From the NCBI RefSeq assembly GCF_014196765.1, contig NZ_JACIEE010000005.1, positions 186,001-250,000 on the forward strand: DNA of 64,000 nucleotides, given 5' to 3'. The notes beneath the pieces were generated by a model. It saw only the letters and a program-made list of their open reading frames with translations. It was not told where the DNA came from and made no database searches. Positions 4,253-60,818 of this stretch are shown here, piece by piece. Numbering within the stretch: the first letter of the stretch is position 1; every line of letters starts with the position of its first letter. A program made the position numbers and the translations under genes. This stretch comes from Mycoplana azooxidifex. GTDB taxonomy: Bacteria; Pseudomonadota; Alphaproteobacteria; Rhizobiales; Rhizobiaceae.

Positions 4253-4377
4253 GCTTCGGCTCGGCAGCACCGGCTTCGGTAAAATTCGTTGAATGAAAAA
4301 CGAATCCCGTGTCGGATCGGCATAGCCCCGTTCGTCCTTAGGGCCGTCTATTCCGACGTATCAAGAGGATCACGACC

Positions 4378-4821
4378 ATGCCGAACACCGTAAATCTGCA
4401 CCGCGTTCTCGCCACCACCCCGGAAAAGGTCTATCGCGCATTCATCGAGGCGGACGCGCTTGCCAAGTGGCTTCCGCCGAACGGCTTCATGTGCACCGTA
4501 CACCACCTGGAGCCAAAGACCGGTGGCACGTTCCGGATGTCGTTCCGGAACTTTACGACAGGCAAGAGCCACGCCTTTGGCGGCGAATACCGCGAGCTCG
4601 TCCCCGGCGAACGCCTGCGCTACACGGACAAGTTCGACGATCCGAACCTGCCCGGCGAGATGGAAGTCACGGTGACGCTGAAGAAAGTGTCGGTCGGAAC
4701 CGAGCTGGAGATTACGCAGGCCGGCGTGCCGGACGTCATCCCGCTTGAGGCTTGCTATCTCGGCTGGCAGGACTCGCTGCGGAATCTGGCGAAGCTCGTT
4801 GAGCCGGAGATCAACGAATAG
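4378..4821 (+). CDS. SRPBCC (AHSA1-like) family protein
   Basis: A 147-residue START/SRPBCC-fold protein of the AHSA1-like group (similar to the C-terminal domain of the Hsp90 co-chaperone Aha1). The N-terminal VNLHRVLATTPEKVYRAF and the ALAKWLPP segment are the usual signature, and the C-terminal YLGWQDSLRNLAKLVE helix closes the hydrophobic cavity. The ribosome site agagga lies about 8 bases before the ATG. Proteins of this group bind small hydrophobic ligands or act as stress-related accessory factors; no specific role can be assigned. It is convergent with the GntR gene downstream, with only 27 bases between the stops, and is probably monocistronic. Confidence 0.85.
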   Translation: MPNTVNLHRVLATTPEKVYRAFIEADALAKWLPPNGFMCTVHHLEPKTGGTFRMSFRNFTTGKSHAFGGEYRELVPGERLRYTDKFDDPNLPGEMEVTVTLKKVSVGTELEITQAGVPDVIPLEACYLGWQDSLRNLAKLVEPEINE

Positions 4822-4848
4822 CGCATTGCAATCGACTGTGTCGGCGTC

Positions 4849-5877
4849 TCAATGCCCGATGTCGCCGACATAGGCCGATACATCCGGCCGGTGCGTCTCA
4901 CGAAACTCGGTGACGCGCCCGATCACCTTCGGCAGCGAGATCGCGATGTGGTGGCGGAGCGCCTCGGCCGCCGCGTCGACATCCCCCGCCTCCAGCGCCG
5001 AAAACACTACAAGGTGTTCGGAGATGAACGGCTCGTCCTTTGGCATCACGTGCGAGACACCCATGATGTGCTTGCTGACGTTGAGCATGAAGCGGGCGCG
5101 GCGCAGCGCGATCAGGATCTCGCGGTTCGGGCAGTGGCCGAGGCAGGTGATGTGGAGATCGGTCTCCATCCCGTCCATCTCCGCAAGCGAGAGGTCGGGA
5201 TAGCCGGCGAGCGCGCGCTCCAGCCGCGCCGTCATCGCCGCGCGCTCCTCTTCCGGCATGAAGGGAAACGCCTGCTTCAGTGCTACCGGCTCCAGCGCCA
5301 CGCGGATGTCGTGCAGGTCGCGCATGCGCTTTTCGTCGAGCGGCACGACGGTCCAGCGCATCCGCTCGTCTTTCTCGACGATGCCGACCGCCTCGAGCCG
5401 TGTCAGCGCATCGCGCGCCACCTGGCGGCCCACCCCCTTGGCACGCGCCAGTTCCACCTCGTTGATGCGGTGGCGCCCGAAGACGGAGAGATGCACCATC
5501 TCGCGCTCCAGCGCCTCGTAGATCGCCTCCCAGGCCGGCGCCTTGCGCAACGCCTGCGCCTCGCAGCCGTCGCCGAACATCGCCGCTGTCAGGGCGAGCC
5601 GGCGCGGCGCTTCCCGGCCCGGGCCGACGATGAAGCCGCGGCCTTCGAAACGGCGGATCGCGCCGGCGGCTTCCAGCAGCGCAAACGCCTGGCGCACCGG
5701 CGTCCGCGTCGAGGAGAAGATGCCGGCCACGTGGCCTTCGAGCAGAAGCGCGCCCTTCGGCAGCCGTCCGGCGGCAATGGCATCGGCGAGCGCGTCGCGG
5801 ATGCGCAGGTAGAGCGGGCCCGTCTCCGTTGGCTCCGCCCTGTCGGCCTGTCTGCTGCCGGCCTGTTCCTTCGCCAT
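4849..5877 (-). CDS. GntR-family regulator with two winged-helix segments and FCD domain
   Basis: A 342-residue regulator, about 100 residues longer than a usual FadR-type protein. The first winged helix (about residues 20-85, STRTPVRQAFALLEAAGAI) is followed near residues 130-190 by a second GntR-like helix-turn-helix (GVGRQVARDALTRLEAVGIV) and then an FCD-type helical ligand domain with DIRVALEP and HHIAISLPKVI. Start choice is uncertain: three in-frame ATGs (5898, 5889, 5877) lie close together, and the last follows ggaaggg. It faces away from ilvD and is convergent with the SRPBCC gene. Target genes are unknown; the divergent ilvD promoter region is the nearest candidate. The tandem HTH arrangement is known in a minority of GntR regulators. 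Confidence 0.85.
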   Translation of the reverse strand: MAKEQAGSRQADRAEPTETGPLYLRIRDALADAIAAGRLPKGALLLEGHVAGIFSSTRTPVRQAFALLEAAGAIRRFEGRGFIVGPGREAPRRLALTAAMFGDGCEAQALRKAPAWEAIYEALEREMVHLSVFGRHRINEVELARAKGVGRQVARDALTRLEAVGIVEKDERMRWTVVPLDEKRMRDLHDIRVALEPVALKQAFPFMPEEERAAMTARLERALAGYPDLSLAEMDGMETDLHITCLGHCPNREILIALRRARFMLNVSKHIMGVSHVMPKDEPFISEHLVVFSALEAGDVDAAAEALRHHIAISLPKVIGRVTEFRETHRPDVSAYVGDIGH

Positions 5878-6114
5878 CACCCTTCCCATGCCTTTCAAAG
5901 GCGGACAGTCTCACAAATGCCTCGTGCCGACAACGGTCATTGCTGCAGGGCAACGCGACAAAAAATTCCAAGTTTCGGCATGAAAAATGACATTCCTTTC
6001 GTGACGCCGCGGGGGATTTGCGCTAGGGAACCCAGGACAACGGCTGGCGGAAGGGGCCTTTCGACCCTACTTTCCCCGAGATGCCGTGCCTGATCGGATC
6101 TGAGGAACACGTCG

Positions 6115-7950
6115 ATGCCAGCCTATCGCTCCCGAACCACCACCCACGGCCGCAACATGGCCGGTGCCCGCGGCCTGTGGCGCGCGACCGGCATGAAGGA
6201 TGCTGACTTCGGCAAGCCGATCATCGCGGTGGTGAATTCGTTCACGCAGTTCGTGCCCGGCCACGTGCACCTGAAGGACCTCGGCCAGCTGGTCGCCCGC
6301 GAGATCGAGGCCGCCGGCGGCGTCGCCAAGGAATTCAACACGATCGCCGTCGACGACGGCATCGCCATGGGCCATGACGGCATGCTCTATTCGCTGCCGA
6401 GCCGCGAGATCATTGCCGACTCGGTCGAATACATGGTCAACGCCCATTGCGCCGACGCCATGGTCTGCATCTCGAATTGCGACAAGATCACCCCCGGCAT
6501 GCTGAATGCCGCCATGCGCCTGAATATCCCCGCCGTCTTCGTCTCCGGCGGGCCGATGGAGGCCGGCAAGGTCGTGCTCCACGGCAAGACGCACGCACTG
6601 GATCTCGTGGACGCCATGGTCGCCGCCGCCGACGACAGCGTCTCCGACGAGGACGTCAAGGTCATCGAGCGCTCCGCCTGCCCCACCTGCGGCTCCTGCT
6701 CGGGCATGTTCACCGCCAACTCGATGAACTGTCTGACGGAAGCGCTCGGCCTGTCGCTGCCCGGCAACGGCTCGACGCTCGCGACCCACGCCGATCGCAA
6801 GCGGCTGTTCGTCGAGGCCGGACACCTGATCGTCGACATCGCCCGCCGCTACTACGAGCAGGAAGACGAGAGCGTGCTGCCGCGCAACGTCGCCAACAAG
6901 AAGGCGTTCGAGAACGCCATGTCGCTCGACATCGCCATGGGCGGCTCGACCAATACGGTCCTGCACATCCTCGCCGCCGCCTACGAAGGCGGGATCGACT
7001 TCACGCTGGAAGACATCGACAAGTTGTCGCGCAAGGTGCCGTGCCTCTCCAAGGTCGCGCCGGCGAAGGCCGATGTGCATATGGAAGACGTCCACCGTGC
7101 CGGCGGCATCATGCGCATCCTCGGCGAACTGGACCGCGGTGGCCTGATCCATCGCAACAGCCCGACCGTGCATGCCGAGACGCTCGGCGACGCGATCGAC
7201 CGCTGGGACATCACCCGCACGAGCAGCGAGACCGTGCGCACCTTCTTCCGCGCCGCCCCCGGCGGCATCCCGACCCAGGTGGCGTTTTCGCAGGAAGCCC
7301 GCTGGGACGATCTGGATACCGACGGCGAAAAGGGCGTCATCCGCTCCGTCGAGCATCCGTTCTCCAAGGACGGCGGCCTCGCGGTCCTGAAGGGCAACAT
7401 CGCGCTCGACGGCTGCATTGTGAAGACCGCCGGCGTCGATGAATCGATCCTGAAGTTCACCGGCCCCGCCATCGTCTTCGAAAGCCAGGACGCGGCCGTG
7501 AAGGGCATTCTCAGTGGCGACGTGAAGGCCGGCGACGTCGTCGTCATCCGCTACGAGGGCCCGAAGGGCGGCCCCGGCATGCAGGAAATGCTCTATCCGA
7601 CGAGCTACCTGAAGTCGAAGGGGCTCGGCAAGGCCTGCGCGCTGATCACCGACGGCCGCTTCTCCGGCGGCACCTCGGGACTTTCGATCGGCCATGCCTC
7701 GCCAGAGGCAGCACAGGGCGGCACGATCGGCCTCGTCCGCCAGGGCGACACCATCGAGATCGACATTCCGAACCGCACGATCAACCTGGTGATCAGCGAC
7801 GCCGAGCTTGCCACCCGCCGTGCCGAACAGGACAAGCTCGGCTGGAAGCCGGCCCAGCCGCGCAAGCGCAACGTCACCACCGCGCTGAAGGCCTATGCCG
7901 CCTTTGCAAGCTCCGCCGACCTCGGCGCCGTGCGCATCCTGCCGGAATGA
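6115..7950 (+). CDS. ilvD: Dihydroxy-acid dehydratase
   Basis: Dihydroxy-acid dehydratase, converting 2,3-dihydroxy-isovalerate or -methylvalerate to the keto acid in valine, isoleucine and leucine biosynthesis. At 611 residues it matches the family length. The family's iron-sulfur cysteines are seen in [10 protein letters not shown] and [18 protein letters not shown], and the C-terminal [19 protein letters not shown] is diagnostic. It starts at ATG with gagga about 9 bases upstream. No other ilv genes are adjacent, as is common in rhizobia. A hairpin terminator follows directly. The IlvD/Edd family also includes sugar-acid dehydratases, but the close fit to IlvD along the whole length makes that unlikely. 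Confidence 0.96.
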
Positions 7951-57070: not shown

Positions 57071-57769
57071 TCAGAAGCGGTAGGTGATACCCGTGCCGAT
57101 CAGCCAGGGGTCGAGCTTGGCCTTGCCCGACAACGGCGCGCCGTCGAGCTTGACCTTCCATTCCGGCTCGAGGAACAGCTTCTTGACGTCGAAGTTCACG
57201 CCCCAGTGCTCGTCGAGCATGTAGTCGAAGCCGACCTGCAGGGCCGCGCCGAACTCGTTCTTGACGTCGAGGTCCGAAAACGCGCCCTTGCCGGACTGGT
57301 TGTAGAACAGCGTGTAGTTCACGCCCGCGCCCACATAGGGCTTGAACGCGCCGAAATCGGTGAAGTGGTACTGCAGCGTCAGCGTCGGCGGCAGCAGCCA
57401 CGTCTTGCCGACCTTGCCGAGTGCATCGATCGAGCCGGCAGCGTCGATATTGGCATAGGTTGTGCCCAGGATCAGTTCGGCCGCGATGTTGTCGGTGAAG
57501 TAGTAGGAGATGTCCAGTTCCGGAACGATCGTGTCGCTGTAGGAGAGATCCGATCCGTCGATGCCGTTCACGCGGCCGGAATTGTTGGTAATCACGCCCA
57601 ACGCACGCAGACGGATCTGCCAGGGACCGAGGGCCTGGATATCCGCCGCCTCCGCCTCCGCCGCCGCGGCCGCCGGTGGCGTCAGGTCCGCCGCCGCAGC
57701 AGCCTGCCCGATCGCCACGAGTGCTATGGCCGCAACAAGGCTCAAGGGGCGGGTCAGGGTGTTCGACAT
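57071..57769 (-). CDS. OmpW family outer membrane protein
   Basis: A 232-residue outer-membrane beta-barrel protein. Signal peptide of about 26 residues (LVAIGQAAAAADL). The barrel carries the eight-strand OmpW pattern with WQIRLRALGVI at the start, TWLLPPTLTLQYHF, FKPYVGAGVNYTLFYNQ and a terminal aromatic YRF, the membrane-assembly signal. OmpW porins pass small hydrophobic compounds and are often oxygen- or iron-regulated. It is monocistronic, followed by a hairpin. An upstream gap of 289 bp holds no clear operator. Confidence 0.93.
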   Translation of the reverse strand: MSNTLTRPLSLVAAIALVAIGQAAAAADLTPPAAAAAEAEAADIQALGPWQIRLRALGVITNNSGRVNGIDGSDLSYSDTIVPELDISYYFTDNIAAELILGTTYANIDAAGSIDALGKVGKTWLLPPTLTLQYHFTDFGAFKPYVGAGVNYTLFYNQSGKGAFSDLDVKNEFGAALQVGFDYMLDEHWGVNFDVKKLFLEPEWKVKLDGAPLSGKAKLDPWLIGTGITYRF

Positions 57770-58058
57770 CTCTTCTCTCCTTCGTCGATCAACGACAGCG
57801 ACTCGAAGCGCTGCACCGTGGCCACTATCGTCGGCGGCAACGAGACGGAGTTGAGATGGATCAATACTTTAGCACTGTCTGCCCGCGACATTGCCGCACG
57901 CATAGCGACCGTGGCCGATGTGTCACGCTCCCCTCGGCCTGCCGGCCGACCGGGGGGACGGGCCGTGCACCGCAACCGAAAGAGGTACTTCGCAGGTATA
58001 AGTTGACTTTGTTTTATAAGCGACGGATCATATTCCCTTGTTTTGCGTGGAGGCTGCC

Positions 58059-58190
58059 ATGGCAATATTTGCGGTGCCTTTCAAAGTCTCACTTCTGGTA
58101 TTCGGTCTGATCCTTGTCGGCGCCCTGGTTGCAAGCGGAAGCGTGCAGGCCCAAAGCCCGTGCAATCCCAGCATCAGCCAGTGCACATAA
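58059..58190 (+). CDS. 43-residue secreted small protein, two cysteines
   Basis: A short gene: MAIFAVPFKVSLLVFGLILV begins a signal peptide or membrane anchor, followed by GALVASGSVQAQ, with a plausible cleavage site after VQA, leaving a 13-residue tail QSPCNPSISQCT with two cysteines. The ribosome site ggagg lies 5 bases before the ATG. It ends TAA only 6 bases before the ATG of a 642-residue membrane protein on the same strand, so the two are likely translationally coupled. No known family is recognised. Signal, spacing and ribosome site are good evidence that it is real. Confidence 0.75.
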   Translation: MAIFAVPFKVSLLVFGLILVGALVASGSVQAQSPCNPSISQCT

Positions 58191-58196
58191 GCGACA

Positions 58197-60125
58197 ATGG
58201 CAACCGCTCCGGCACAGGATCAGGTCGCTGGCTTTCTCAGCGAGCAGAGTTCCTTTGCGTTGTCGCTTGCGGTGGGCGCGATCGTGATCGCGCTCTATGC
58301 GAGGAAACGCATAGAGGAATTCACGCGGCCGCCGAAAGGCGAGGAGTTTGACTTCACCAAGATGCTGACGATGGGCGACATCGTCGGGCGGTCGATCTTC
58401 AACCGGTCCTTCGTGCTCTACCTGATCTTCCTGGAGTTCCTGTATCTCTTCATGTGCACGGCCAAGCCCGTCGTGCTGCTGATCGCCAACGATCCGACCG
58501 GTGCGCAGGCCCCCTTCCAGGGCATGGCTTGGCCCTTCGGCGCGGCCCTGATTGTGGTCGGCATTCTGCCTTCAGTGCCGATGGTCGCCCAGATCGAGGC
58601 GATGCTGCGCGGACTTGCCCAACGCGTCGCCAGCATTCCCGGCGAATTCTATGCCCGCGTGCAGCGCCTGTCGCGCAACGACATAGAGACGCTGGTGGCG
58701 GACTCGCCGGACTACAGGCGGGACATGCGCAAGTTCTGGCGCATCCGCAACCTCCTGCTCAGCCTCGGCTTCAACGAGGACCAGGCGACGCTGATGGGGC
58801 GCAACTGCATCGCCTTGCGGCTGTTCGCCGGGCTGACGATCCGCGGCGAACGAATCTGGTCGAAGGAGGAATACGAGAAGTACCGGGAGATCATCCAGGT
58901 CCTGCGGCCAAAATCCGACATGCTGGAAAACGAGATCGAGACGCTCGTCTCGACGACGCTCAAATCGCCGCAGGTCAGGGAGATCCTGGCGAACTCGAAC
59001 ATCGAGGATCCGGCGCAGGATCTTTCAAGAGAAACCGGCGAGAAGCTGAACCGCGATGCGGAGGCACTGGTCCGCGCTCTGAATGATTCCGTCGACGAGA
59101 AGGATCTTAAAGCCGCAAGGAACTACGAGGAACTGGTGAAGCGCTGGTCGCTGCTGGCGAGCGAATGCGAAACCGGCGCAAAGCGCCTCTCCGCCCTCTT
59201 TGCGATCCTCGCCCGCAACGATCGCGAAACAGCACTGACGATCAAGAGGGGCGCTGCCCCAGGCATGCTTCCGGCGGCGAAGAAGCCCGACGCCGTTCTG
59301 GCAACCCTGTTCAGGCTGGTCAACGACAGCGTCCCCACCTATCCCTGGAGCAATGCGGCGCTGCTTGCGATCGGCATCGGCTTCGTCGGCTGCGTCGTTC
59401 CGCTCTGCATCTACCTCTACATCACGGAAGTCCTGACACAGGCCGCAAAGCCTGCAGTCGACTGGGGACAGGCGATCGCCCGGACCGACGCGACGACGAT
59501 CATCAAGAGCGGGCTGATCACTGCGCTCACGGTGGGCGCCATGTTTGCCCTCACGAGCCTGATCGCCCTGTTTTTGCGTTCGCTGCGGATCGAGGAGGAG
59601 AACTGGGAGAGGTTTACCAGCATCTGGAATTTCCCGTTCGCGAACTACCTGGCCATCGTCTGGTGGGGCAGCCTCGCGGCCTTCATGCCGCTCTTGGTAT
59701 CGTTCATCATCTACTACTACCTTGGTCCAGGCGTGAACGACCTCGACAAGATGACGCCGGAGATCATCGCCAGCGACATGTTCTTCCGCTACATCCTCGG
59801 TTTCGTTGCGGTTGCCTACGGCATCAGCACATGCATCATCGCCGATTTCATCGATGAAGGCCGAACGGAAAGCGCTAGGTACATCGTCTATCCGCTGATC
59901 TTCATTCTCACGGTCGAGGTCCTGTGCCTGCTCGTCAACCCGAGCTATGCCGAGCAGCCCCGCGCCTTCTGGCACAATTTCGTGGCCGTCGCCTGCTACA
60001 GCCTCGTGGCGCTGAAGGTGTTCCAGCGAAGCTTCAGCGAGATCGTCGCGCGGTCCGGCAACAGCGAACCGCGCGAGGTGGCGTCACGGGAGGCATCGCT
60101 CGTCTATGGCGGGCCGATGATCTGA
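58197..60125 (+). CDS. Multi-span membrane protein, family not recognised
   Basis: A 642-residue inner-membrane protein. About eight to nine hydrophobic helices: one near residues 20-36, one or two at 70-97, one at 107-127, then a 250-residue soluble region (about 130-380), and five more in the C-terminal part (about 388-410, 440-465, 485-510, 530-550, 575-620). The soluble region is charged and helical (RKFWRIRNLLLSLGFNEDQATLMGRN, EDPAQDLSRETGEKLNRDAEALVRAL). No catalytic motif, P-loop or transporter signature was found. It follows a 43-residue secreted peptide by 6 bases, and nothing else nearby gives a role. It may be a sensor or anchor partner of that peptide. Confidence 0.8.
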   Translation: MATAPAQDQVAGFLSEQSSFALSLAVGAIVIALYARKRIEEFTRPPKGEEFDFTKMLTMGDIVGRSIFNRSFVLYLIFLEFLYLFMCTAKPVVLLIANDPTGAQAPFQGMAWPFGAALIVVGILPSVPMVAQIEAMLRGLAQRVASIPGEFYARVQRLSRNDIETLVADSPDYRRDMRKFWRIRNLLLSLGFNEDQATLMGRNCIALRLFAGLTIRGERIWSKEEYEKYREIIQVLRPKSDMLENEIETLVSTTLKSPQVREILANSNIEDPAQDLSRETGEKLNRDAEALVRALNDSVDEKDLKAARNYEELVKRWSLLASECETGAKRLSALFAILARNDRETALTIKRGAAPGMLPAAKKPDAVLATLFRLVNDSVPTYPWSNAALLAIGIGFVGCVVPLCIYLYITEVLTQAAKPAVDWGQAIARTDATTIIKSGLITALTVGAMFALTSLIALFLRSLRIEEENWERFTSIWNFPFANYLAIVWWGSLAAFMPLLVSFIIYYYLGPGVNDLDKMTPEIIASDMFFRYILGFVAVAYGISTCIIADFIDEGRTESARYIVYPLIFILTVEVLCLLVNPSYAEQPRAFWHNFVAVACYSLVALKVFQRSFSEIVARSGNSEPREVASREASLVYGGPMI

Positions 60126-60167
60126 CCCGCCCCGGCCAAAGGCGAACAGTCGAAGGGCAATAGCCAG

Positions 60168-60758
60168 TCAGGCAGCCTTCGGAAGCTCGCCCCGCCCGAG
60201 CCGGCGCCCGGCGGCGACGAGCAGGCCGGCAGCGCCGTCCAGCCAGCCGTCCTTGAGTTCCAGCGCCAGGAAACGATGGCGCTCGAACGGACCGGGCATG
60301 ACGAGATGGGCGGCCTTGGCCGCAAAGAAGCCGAAACGCTCGTAATAGGCCGCGTCACCGACGAGCAGCACCGCGCCGTGGCCGCGCTGTGCGGCCTCGG
60401 TGATCGCCGCGCGCATCAGTGCCGAGCCGATGCCCGTGCCCTCGTAGGCCGGATCGACGGCGAGCGGGCCGAGCAGCAGCGCCGGCACCGGATTGCCCGA
60501 CGCGTCGACCCCGGCCTCGACGTTCCAGAGCCGCACCGTGCCGATCACGTGGCCGTCACCATCGCGGGCGACGAGCGCCAGACCTTCCGCCGGCACGCGG
60601 CCGCGGCGCAGCTTCTCCGACGACTTGCGGAAACGCCCCTCGCCCATGGCATGGTCGAGCAGGCGCTCACGCGCCAGCACGTCGCCGGCATTCTCCCGGT
60701 CGATTGCGAATGCGGATTGCGCGAAAAACGCGCGGACAGAACCAAGAACAGTGGCCAT
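60168..60758 (-). CDS. GNAT family N-acetyltransferase
   Basis: A 196-residue acetyltransferase-fold protein. The acetyl-CoA site reads LGPLAVDPAYEGTGIGSALMRAAI (about residues 100-123) with the R/Q-x-x-G-x-G/A-like GTGIG, preceded by GLALVARDGDGHVIGTVRLWNV. The C-terminal part (AKAAHLVMPGPFERHRFLALELKDGWL) is typical of the rhizobial YhbS-type group. The ATG chosen follows gggagg; a GTG ten codons up is also possible. Convergent with the membrane-protein gene. Substrate unknown. Confidence 0.9.
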   Translation of the reverse strand: MATVLGSVRAFFAQSAFAIDRENAGDVLARERLLDHAMGEGRFRKSSEKLRRGRVPAEGLALVARDGDGHVIGTVRLWNVEAGVDASGNPVPALLLGPLAVDPAYEGTGIGSALMRAAITEAAQRGHGAVLLVGDAAYYERFGFFAAKAAHLVMPGPFERHRFLALELKDGWLDGAAGLLVAAGRRLGRGELPKAA

Positions 60759-60818
60759 CCCGGCCTCCCGAACTTCAATTGCCGCCACTAGCGGTCATCG
60801 GATTTCATTGTGAGTGGC

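Follow-up and report, generated by a model that had tools for sequence, protein, structure and literature searches.

A predicted exported two-cysteine micropeptide encoded beside an unnamed membrane-protein family in Alphaproteobacteria

Overview

We found that a short gene for a predicted exported peptide with two cysteines accompanies the gene of an unnamed membrane-protein family in Alphaproteobacteria. The pairing is well supported, as the micropeptide ORF lies just upstream of the large gene in 33 of 34 relatives, down to 14% identity (27 of 28 clusters at 80% identity). The pair was characterized in the window, the whole 64,000-nucleotide stretch of Mycoplana azooxidifex DNA that was analysed (Table 1). 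From its conservation, its fused domains and its neighbours we infer a mechanism that we judge evenly balanced between right and wrong: the exported disulfide-ring peptide would regulate the membrane protein, and the two would form the part that stays constant within a modular lysis/conflict system.

The gene pair in the window

The small ORF translates as MAIFAVPFKVSLLVFGLILVGALVASGSVQAQSPCNPSISQCT (43 aa) and its C-terminal end reads SVQAQSPCNPSISQCT. The original prediction had described an ORF with a ggagg ribosome site 5 bases before its start and a TAA 6 bases before the next ATG, and both coordinates and sequence agree; the two window ORFs lie in one frame. The product had also been called a secreted two-cysteine peptide. 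By a mechanical test it carries the hydrophobic stretch and small-x-small motif of a Sec signal peptide cut by signal peptidase I, and both cysteines are present, so that export and cleavage are predicted as claimed. Its mature tail had been put at about 13 residues with two cysteines; the cysteines hold, while the conventional cleavage site between VQA and Q is predicted to leave 12 residues. A lipoprotein was rejected, as inspection by eye of 27 tails revealed no lipobox (L/V/I at -3 before the first cysteine).

For the 642-residue partner, eight to nine helices and a 250-residue soluble region had been proposed. Hydropathy with overlapping windows merged gives nine helices (residues 17-35, 71-89, 115-133, 387-405, 443-461, 487-505, 533-551, 562-580 and 591-609) and a soluble stretch of 253 residues (134-386). 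The protein had been termed unrecognised, and curated profiles indeed place it near no family cut-off: Pfam returned three matches, all far below cut-off (best E 0.13), NCBIfam returned none, and neither library assigned it to a known transporter or sensor family. The same two libraries gave nothing near cut-off for the micropeptide. PADLOC-DB yielded 0 families for five core membrane proteins (the window protein P0002, L024, L028, L035 and L023), PHROG gave no match for P0002 or L024, the two membrane proteins scanned, and none of the viral contigs and phage records searched matched P0002. Among relatives, curated profiles did not match the cores of L023, L040, L043 and L067, and those of L007, L024, L028 and L041 gave weak matches below cut-off. 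A profile search of PDB chains returned four matches up to E 1, of which the best three (E 8e-5 to 0.02) were receptors fused to a helical partner; these matches are helical and were taken as chance-like. The AlphaFold2 model, built from three near-identical sequences (window, L010, L011), reached a pLDDT of 34 and thus gives no structural support.

Table 1. Features of the window and lytic-type neighbours of related loci
Locus	Feature	Position	Strand	Basis or remark
Window	Left flank ORF, outer-membrane-protein-like	57071-57769	-	reading of translation
Window	Two-gene cassette	57928..60167		missing as a unit in two same-genus relatives
Window	Shine-Dalgarno-like GGAGG	58049..58053	+	sequence; 5 bases 5' of the micropeptide ATG
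Window	Micropeptide gene	58059..58190	+	43 codons and TAA; counterparts in 33/34 loci
Window	Predicted Sec signal peptide, residues 1-31, ending VQA	58059..58151	+	sequence; family small-x-small motif shortly before first Cys
Window	Predicted mature peptide QSPCNPSISQCT	58152..58187	+	pS 0.41, pN 0 against L011 over last 13 codons (few sites)
Window	642-aa membrane protein (P0002), about nine helices, outside known families	58197..60125	+	translation, profiles, hydropathy
Window	Predicted cytoplasmic helical region, codons 134-386	58596..59354	+	hydropathy and positive-inside reading; inferred topology
Window	Right flank ORF, GNAT-like	60168-60788	-	reading of translation
L006	Caspase
L007	GDSL-caspase, papain, GH19-like
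L020	Glucosaminidase, PGAP1-like hydrolase			same cluster as L007
L024	GDSL-amidase-M15
L026	Trypsin-like protease fused to Endonuclease_NS	4319-6490		plasmid
L044	Same fusion as L026	8467-10515		second plasmid
L027	Papain, amidase
L028	CHAT with LCAT-like domain
L029	Phage-type lysozymes
L032	SLT
L033	Patatin, M15
L034	GH25, subtilase
L035	Amidase-M15, trypsin
L042	PG-binding with weak CHAP match
L043	PG-binding with weak CHAP match, patatin
L045	Tle1-like phospholipase, phage lysozyme
L070	Tle1-like phospholipase, SLT-M15

Distribution of the pair across relatives

The large gene was present in three of seven same-genus genomes, the window's own included. A narrow profile (A1) detected it in 7 of 394 genomes of its own family, Rhizobiaceae, and only in the own genome within the order (1/397) and phylum (1/398) samples; broader profiles, again counting the own genome, gave 3/357 in the class, 3/279 in the phylum and 4/101 in the family sample. 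One relative, L010 (97% identity), comes from a Rhizobium sp. Four plasmid-borne homologues of about 34% identity were recovered by tblastn, each with a signal-peptide-bearing small ORF directly upstream whose tail reads C[ND]PxI[SN]xC. Three weak matches also carry a micropeptide: G188 (L023; tail ...ALAQNCVNGECK), G036 (L025; tail ...AVAQSCVNGVCK) and L024, a 1071-aa paralogue from the same genome as the window (contig C10, 186000-199000; tail ...VHAGNPCNPNIQNC). Searches from this paralogue reached Rhizobium and Paracoccus plasmids, where all ten loci retrieved (L026-L035) possessed the micropeptide, and so did every locus from later searches (L040, L041, L042-L046). Of four loci found after the tail motif had been defined, L067, L069 and L070 carry the micropeptide and L068 does not.

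Start, stop and both cysteines were found in 33/33 alphaproteobacterial loci. The sole exception, L068, belongs to another class and retains the membrane domain; its only BLAST match in the locus set is L040, and its C-terminal domain is TerB-like at 8e-5, below the curated cut-off. The membrane domain may therefore work alone, or L068 may be a different branch. The small ORF is thus conserved where the large gene is kept, with the micropeptide accompanying it in 33 of 34 loci, and the coupling put forward in the original prediction stands.

The family spans Rhizobiaceae to Paracoccaceae, is sporadic in Alphaproteobacteria and often lies on plasmids, with partner proteins of 541-1094 residues. 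The locus set leaves aside H6, H10, H12, H13, H59, H60, H62 and H63, from species the same as or close to included ones, and H20, an S. meliloti SBP-only match annotated as an amino acid transporter protein. Two loci have a large gene broken into several ORFs beside the micropeptide ORF (L025, 4618-6353; L047, 4001-7283), and these are either degraded copies or sequencing errors. The micropeptide was annotated in one of 13 plasmid gene tables examined, namely that of L043, which lists it as a hypothetical protein, and it was absent from all nine tables accompanying L026-L035; little can be concluded from a missing entry, as the gene tables of PLSDB do not list every gene.

The flanks in related genomes indicate how the pair is inherited. 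Among four same-genus genomes without the pair, the flanks are nearly contiguous in G004 (76 bases between positions 57871 and 60168, L055) and G005 (20 bases between 57927 and 60168, L056). In G003 the flanks are 263 bases apart, and G001 has a different left flank as well. The near-contiguous flanks in two of the four genomes argue that both genes were gained or lost together. In another genus the pair adjoins the same right-hand genes (L021). A further flanking ORF was read as ODC from its translation.

Coding evidence and selection on the micropeptide

We examined the peptide tail across the 27 micropeptide-bearing clusters, of which 20 share the tail C[ND]PxxxxC. The remaining tails are CVNGEC, CVNGVC, CPNGVC, CFNGRC, CSGSQRC, CQVRQNC and CATNARVC. 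The predicted mature peptide has about 9-13 residues in most members, and that of L043, where the cleavage site is ambiguous, may be longer. Over the last 13 codons, the window and L011 differ by 3 synonymous and 0 other changes (pS 0.41, pN 0; few sites), and L009 and L020 by 7 synonymous changes and 1 other (pS 0.95, pN 0.03; few sites). By these substitution counts, purifying selection acts on the tail in both groups of close relatives compared.

A mechanical rule was written that asks for a stop at most 200 nt upstream, C-x4-6-C at the C-terminal end, a hydrophobic stretch and an SPase I-type motif. It was satisfied by 29 of 30 family loci compared to 0 of 314 control ORFs of at least 200 aa, and the remaining locus (L041) was recovered by the rule in a both-strand scan. 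Over 769,757 bases on both strands, the rule returned 32 matches, comprising 28 family sites and four elsewhere; none of those four carries C[ND]P, and one is an off-frame ORF inside the L068 large gene. Near-duplicate loci were excluded from both control scans. Because the rule was written after most loci had been seen, the loci found later are the fairer test. Peptide and protein distances were correlated (rho 0.39; 1 of 2000 permutations as high), which speaks for co-inheritance only and not for contact.

The conserved tail bears on two explanations in which no free peptide acts. In the first, the ORF is a leader whose product is inert and whose translation serves only to couple or attenuate the large gene. 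The 6-nt spacing and common frame in the window suit such a leader, which is nevertheless scarcely credible given that the peptide end stays conserved although the gap to the large gene is anywhere between -1 and 122 nt, that the frames differ in L006, and that the C-terminal amino acids are kept through synonymous changes. A pure leader ORF was rejected on the conserved peptide and variable gap, and a read-through fusion was rejected because the ORFs share a frame in the window and occupy different frames in L006. In the second, the product is an uncleaved small subunit, with its hydrophobic part as a transmembrane helix of a complex and its cysteine loop as a periplasmic plug or clamp. Many known bacterial micropeptides are uncleaved subunits, and the hydrophobic stretch here is strong. 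This explanation is unlikely in view of the small-x-small motif before the first cysteine at 28/28 rule-passing family sites (a motif that the rule requires) and of the weaker conservation of the whole ORF relative to its tail (pN 0.21 against 0.03 for L009 and L020).

Periplasmic binding domains and other fusions

SBP_bac_3 (PF00497) was matched by Pfam only in the C-terminal domains of paralogues or in the next ORF, and not in P0002. The domain is fused in L028 (1.4e-6, above cut-off) and L024 (1.5e-5, just below cut-off) and forms the next ORF in L035, L045 and L067. An alignment across 18 loci contains near-invariant loops, CDPTT and FSPIVF, which we take to recall SBP/iGluR ligand loops. 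The paralogues thus resemble the SBP_bac_3 family in this domain and its loops; they differ from it in that the domain is joined or adjacent to the membrane core and not to an ABC permease/ATPase pair. As a separate observation, the CDPTT-type loop resembles the CDP/CNP core of the micropeptide, by mimicry or coincidence. The large protein of L041 has an Xre/ParS antitoxin-like C-terminal domain (residues 553-608; E 4e-7, below the curated cut-off), and this and the TerB fusion of L068, both below their cut-offs, fit a conflict setting. The end of L024 is overlapped by a 354-aa ORF without assigned function.

A periplasmic binding domain beside the partner in many loci, together with a short, stable-looking peptide that is predicted to be exported and varies together with its partner, would also suit a Gram-negative pheromone or kin-recognition pair, in which the ring peptide would be released and detected by the membrane protein (and SBP domain) of neighbouring cells. 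Pheromones diverge for specificity, and a peptide of about 1.0-1.3 kDa is large for porins. The C[ND]PxxxxC core is conserved across genera (20/27), the peptide falls in that size range, and no dedicated exporter gene was noticed on reading the neighbourhood gene lists, all of which make release as a signal rather unlikely.

Lytic enzymes near the pair

Lytic enzymes were found within the fetched stretch in 17 of 27 micropeptide-bearing clusters (Table 1). Some are adjacent and co-directional, and others are kilobases away or on the opposite strand (L006, L026, L033, L044 and L045). Profiles of phage endolysins match the GDSL-amidase-M15 protein of L024 (phrog_435, 1e-35), the PADLOC model BovA matches the CHAT neighbour of L028, to which L030 is 51% identical (3e-6 for L028), and the Endonuclease_NS of the L026/L044 fusion is presumably EndoG-like. 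An N-terminal signal or TM-like stretch was absent in 23 of 26 lytic neighbours tested, a set that leaves aside the L044 and L045 enzymes; the L006 caspase scores 1.96, just below the signal-peptide threshold of 2.0, and the S1/P1 nuclease of L044, outside the 26, has a signal-like N-terminus. The wall hydrolases of L032 and L070 share phrog_1544 (phage, function unassigned) ahead of their SLT domains, possibly a membrane-active part. It was also noted that L020 (7782-8537) and L045 (10975-11730) each encode, near the pair, a 251-aa protein that is hydrophobic at its N-terminus and unmatched in Pfam, and that the two look similar.

Judged solely by product names, a lytic enzyme is present in 10 of 12 annotated family loci, the others being L026 and L046; L047, a near copy of L026 outside the 12, lists a trypsin-like protein in its table. 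As a control, 250 kb from five of the same plasmids (219 features) contained one patatin, no wall hydrolase and no such protease by product name, with two Xaa-Pro, two M20-type and two U32 peptidases and one alpha/beta hydrolase not counted as lytic. This control relies on annotation names, whereas family loci were also Pfam-scanned. Ten of the 27 clusters, the window's included, have no lytic gene among the neighbours scanned, so the lysis link may not be general, and the window copy is a solitary core.

A further reading is a bacteriocin-like toxin, with the membrane protein as its immunity or export protein. A disulfide peptide predicted to be exported, with a sporadic distribution and frequent plasmid carriage, has the look of one. 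Purifying selection, a motif common to several genera, a partner of 541-1094 residues that is oversized for an immunity protein, and nearby lytic enzymes that vary while the peptide hardly does make a toxin very improbable.

Proposed mechanism

Regulation of the membrane protein by the peptide, the simplest reading, would work as follows. The small gene would yield a Sec-exported micropeptide, from which signal peptidase I would remove the first 31 residues to leave a 12-residue peptide. In the periplasm, a disulfide between its two cysteines could form a ring of eight residues. This ring may bind the periplasmic face of the neighbouring gene's membrane protein, for instance around the conserved W112-P113, and set the state of that protein. 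The large cytoplasmic helical region would relay the signal, and in many relatives the periplasmic SBP_bac_3 domain would act as co-receptor.

The nearby enzymes attack wall, lipid and protein yet mostly have no export signals, so some factor must set when, and perhaps by what route, they get to the envelope. A peptide that is near-constant amid varying neighbouring enzymes would belong to the controlling side of a modular system. Peptide and membrane protein, with or without SBP, would be the constant core, and wall hydrolases, phospholipases and proteases the variable parts; most likely the core would decide the timing of enzyme action, in self-lysis or in conflict. A peptide-sensor or peptide-export pair, as suggested in the original prediction, may apply, yet the SBP_bac_3 domain and the recurrent lytic neighbours speak for control of lysis or conflict over plain peptide export. 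The solitary core of the window may act with the enzyme of its own-genome paralogue L024.

A more specific form of this control is a native lysis switch and programmed-death or conflict receptor, in which the ring micropeptide would gate the membrane protein in the manner of an antiholin acting on a holin. Its opening or signalling would free signal-less endolysins, phospholipases, the EndoG-like nuclease and the caspase, CHAT and trypsin proteases. We put this form forward tentatively, as a rather unlikely possibility.

Comparison with known systems

Gram-positive signalling of the Phr/Rap and Agr types employs a short exported peptide whose gene lies beside that of its receptor. The present pair resembles these in encoding a short, predicted exported peptide beside a partner; it differs in that the peptide gene comes first, a disulfide ring is predicted in place of a linear or thiolactone peptide, the host is Gram-negative and receptors of those families were not found here.

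Phage T4 antiholin RI is described as a small exported, cleaved protein that binds the holin T periplasmically and controls endolysin release (PMC8385771, PMC11413866). The likeness is that endolysin-like enzymes, mostly without signal peptides, lie near the micropeptide pair. However, PHROG showed no relation for P0002 or L024, no phage record or viral contig matched P0002, and here about nine helices, a 250-residue predicted cytoplasmic region and a predicted mature peptide of about 9-13 residues are seen. By analogy, RI/T would be the nearest functional parallel, and family membership is not claimed. NTP-dependent conflict systems with caspase-type and other effectors (PMC7159879) join an invariant controlling component to changeable lytic or proteolytic effectors, as is proposed here, but no STAND or MoxR NTPase was found among the neighbours scanned here.

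PMC7159879 and PMC12419801 were searched by term, and none of 'signal peptide', 'secreted', 'solute-binding' and 'small peptide' occurs in the former. No description of the pair appeared in the titles and opening parts of abstracts of the open-licence literature searched. The core of this pair family is covered by none of the profile libraries, phage records and papers searched here.

These results tie a conserved, rarely annotated peptide of about 12 residues, predicted to be exported, to an unnamed membrane-protein family. At a minimum, they provide a sequence rule to detect unannotated peptides along with a defined partner. If the peptide controls the nearby lytic enzymes, Gram-negatives would have a way of setting off lysis or conflict that is new in principle. 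Mitochondria arose from the Alphaproteobacteria, and, if this control is true, caspase, trypsin and EndoG-like partners in this class would allow old ideas about a bacterial origin of apoptosis to be tested.
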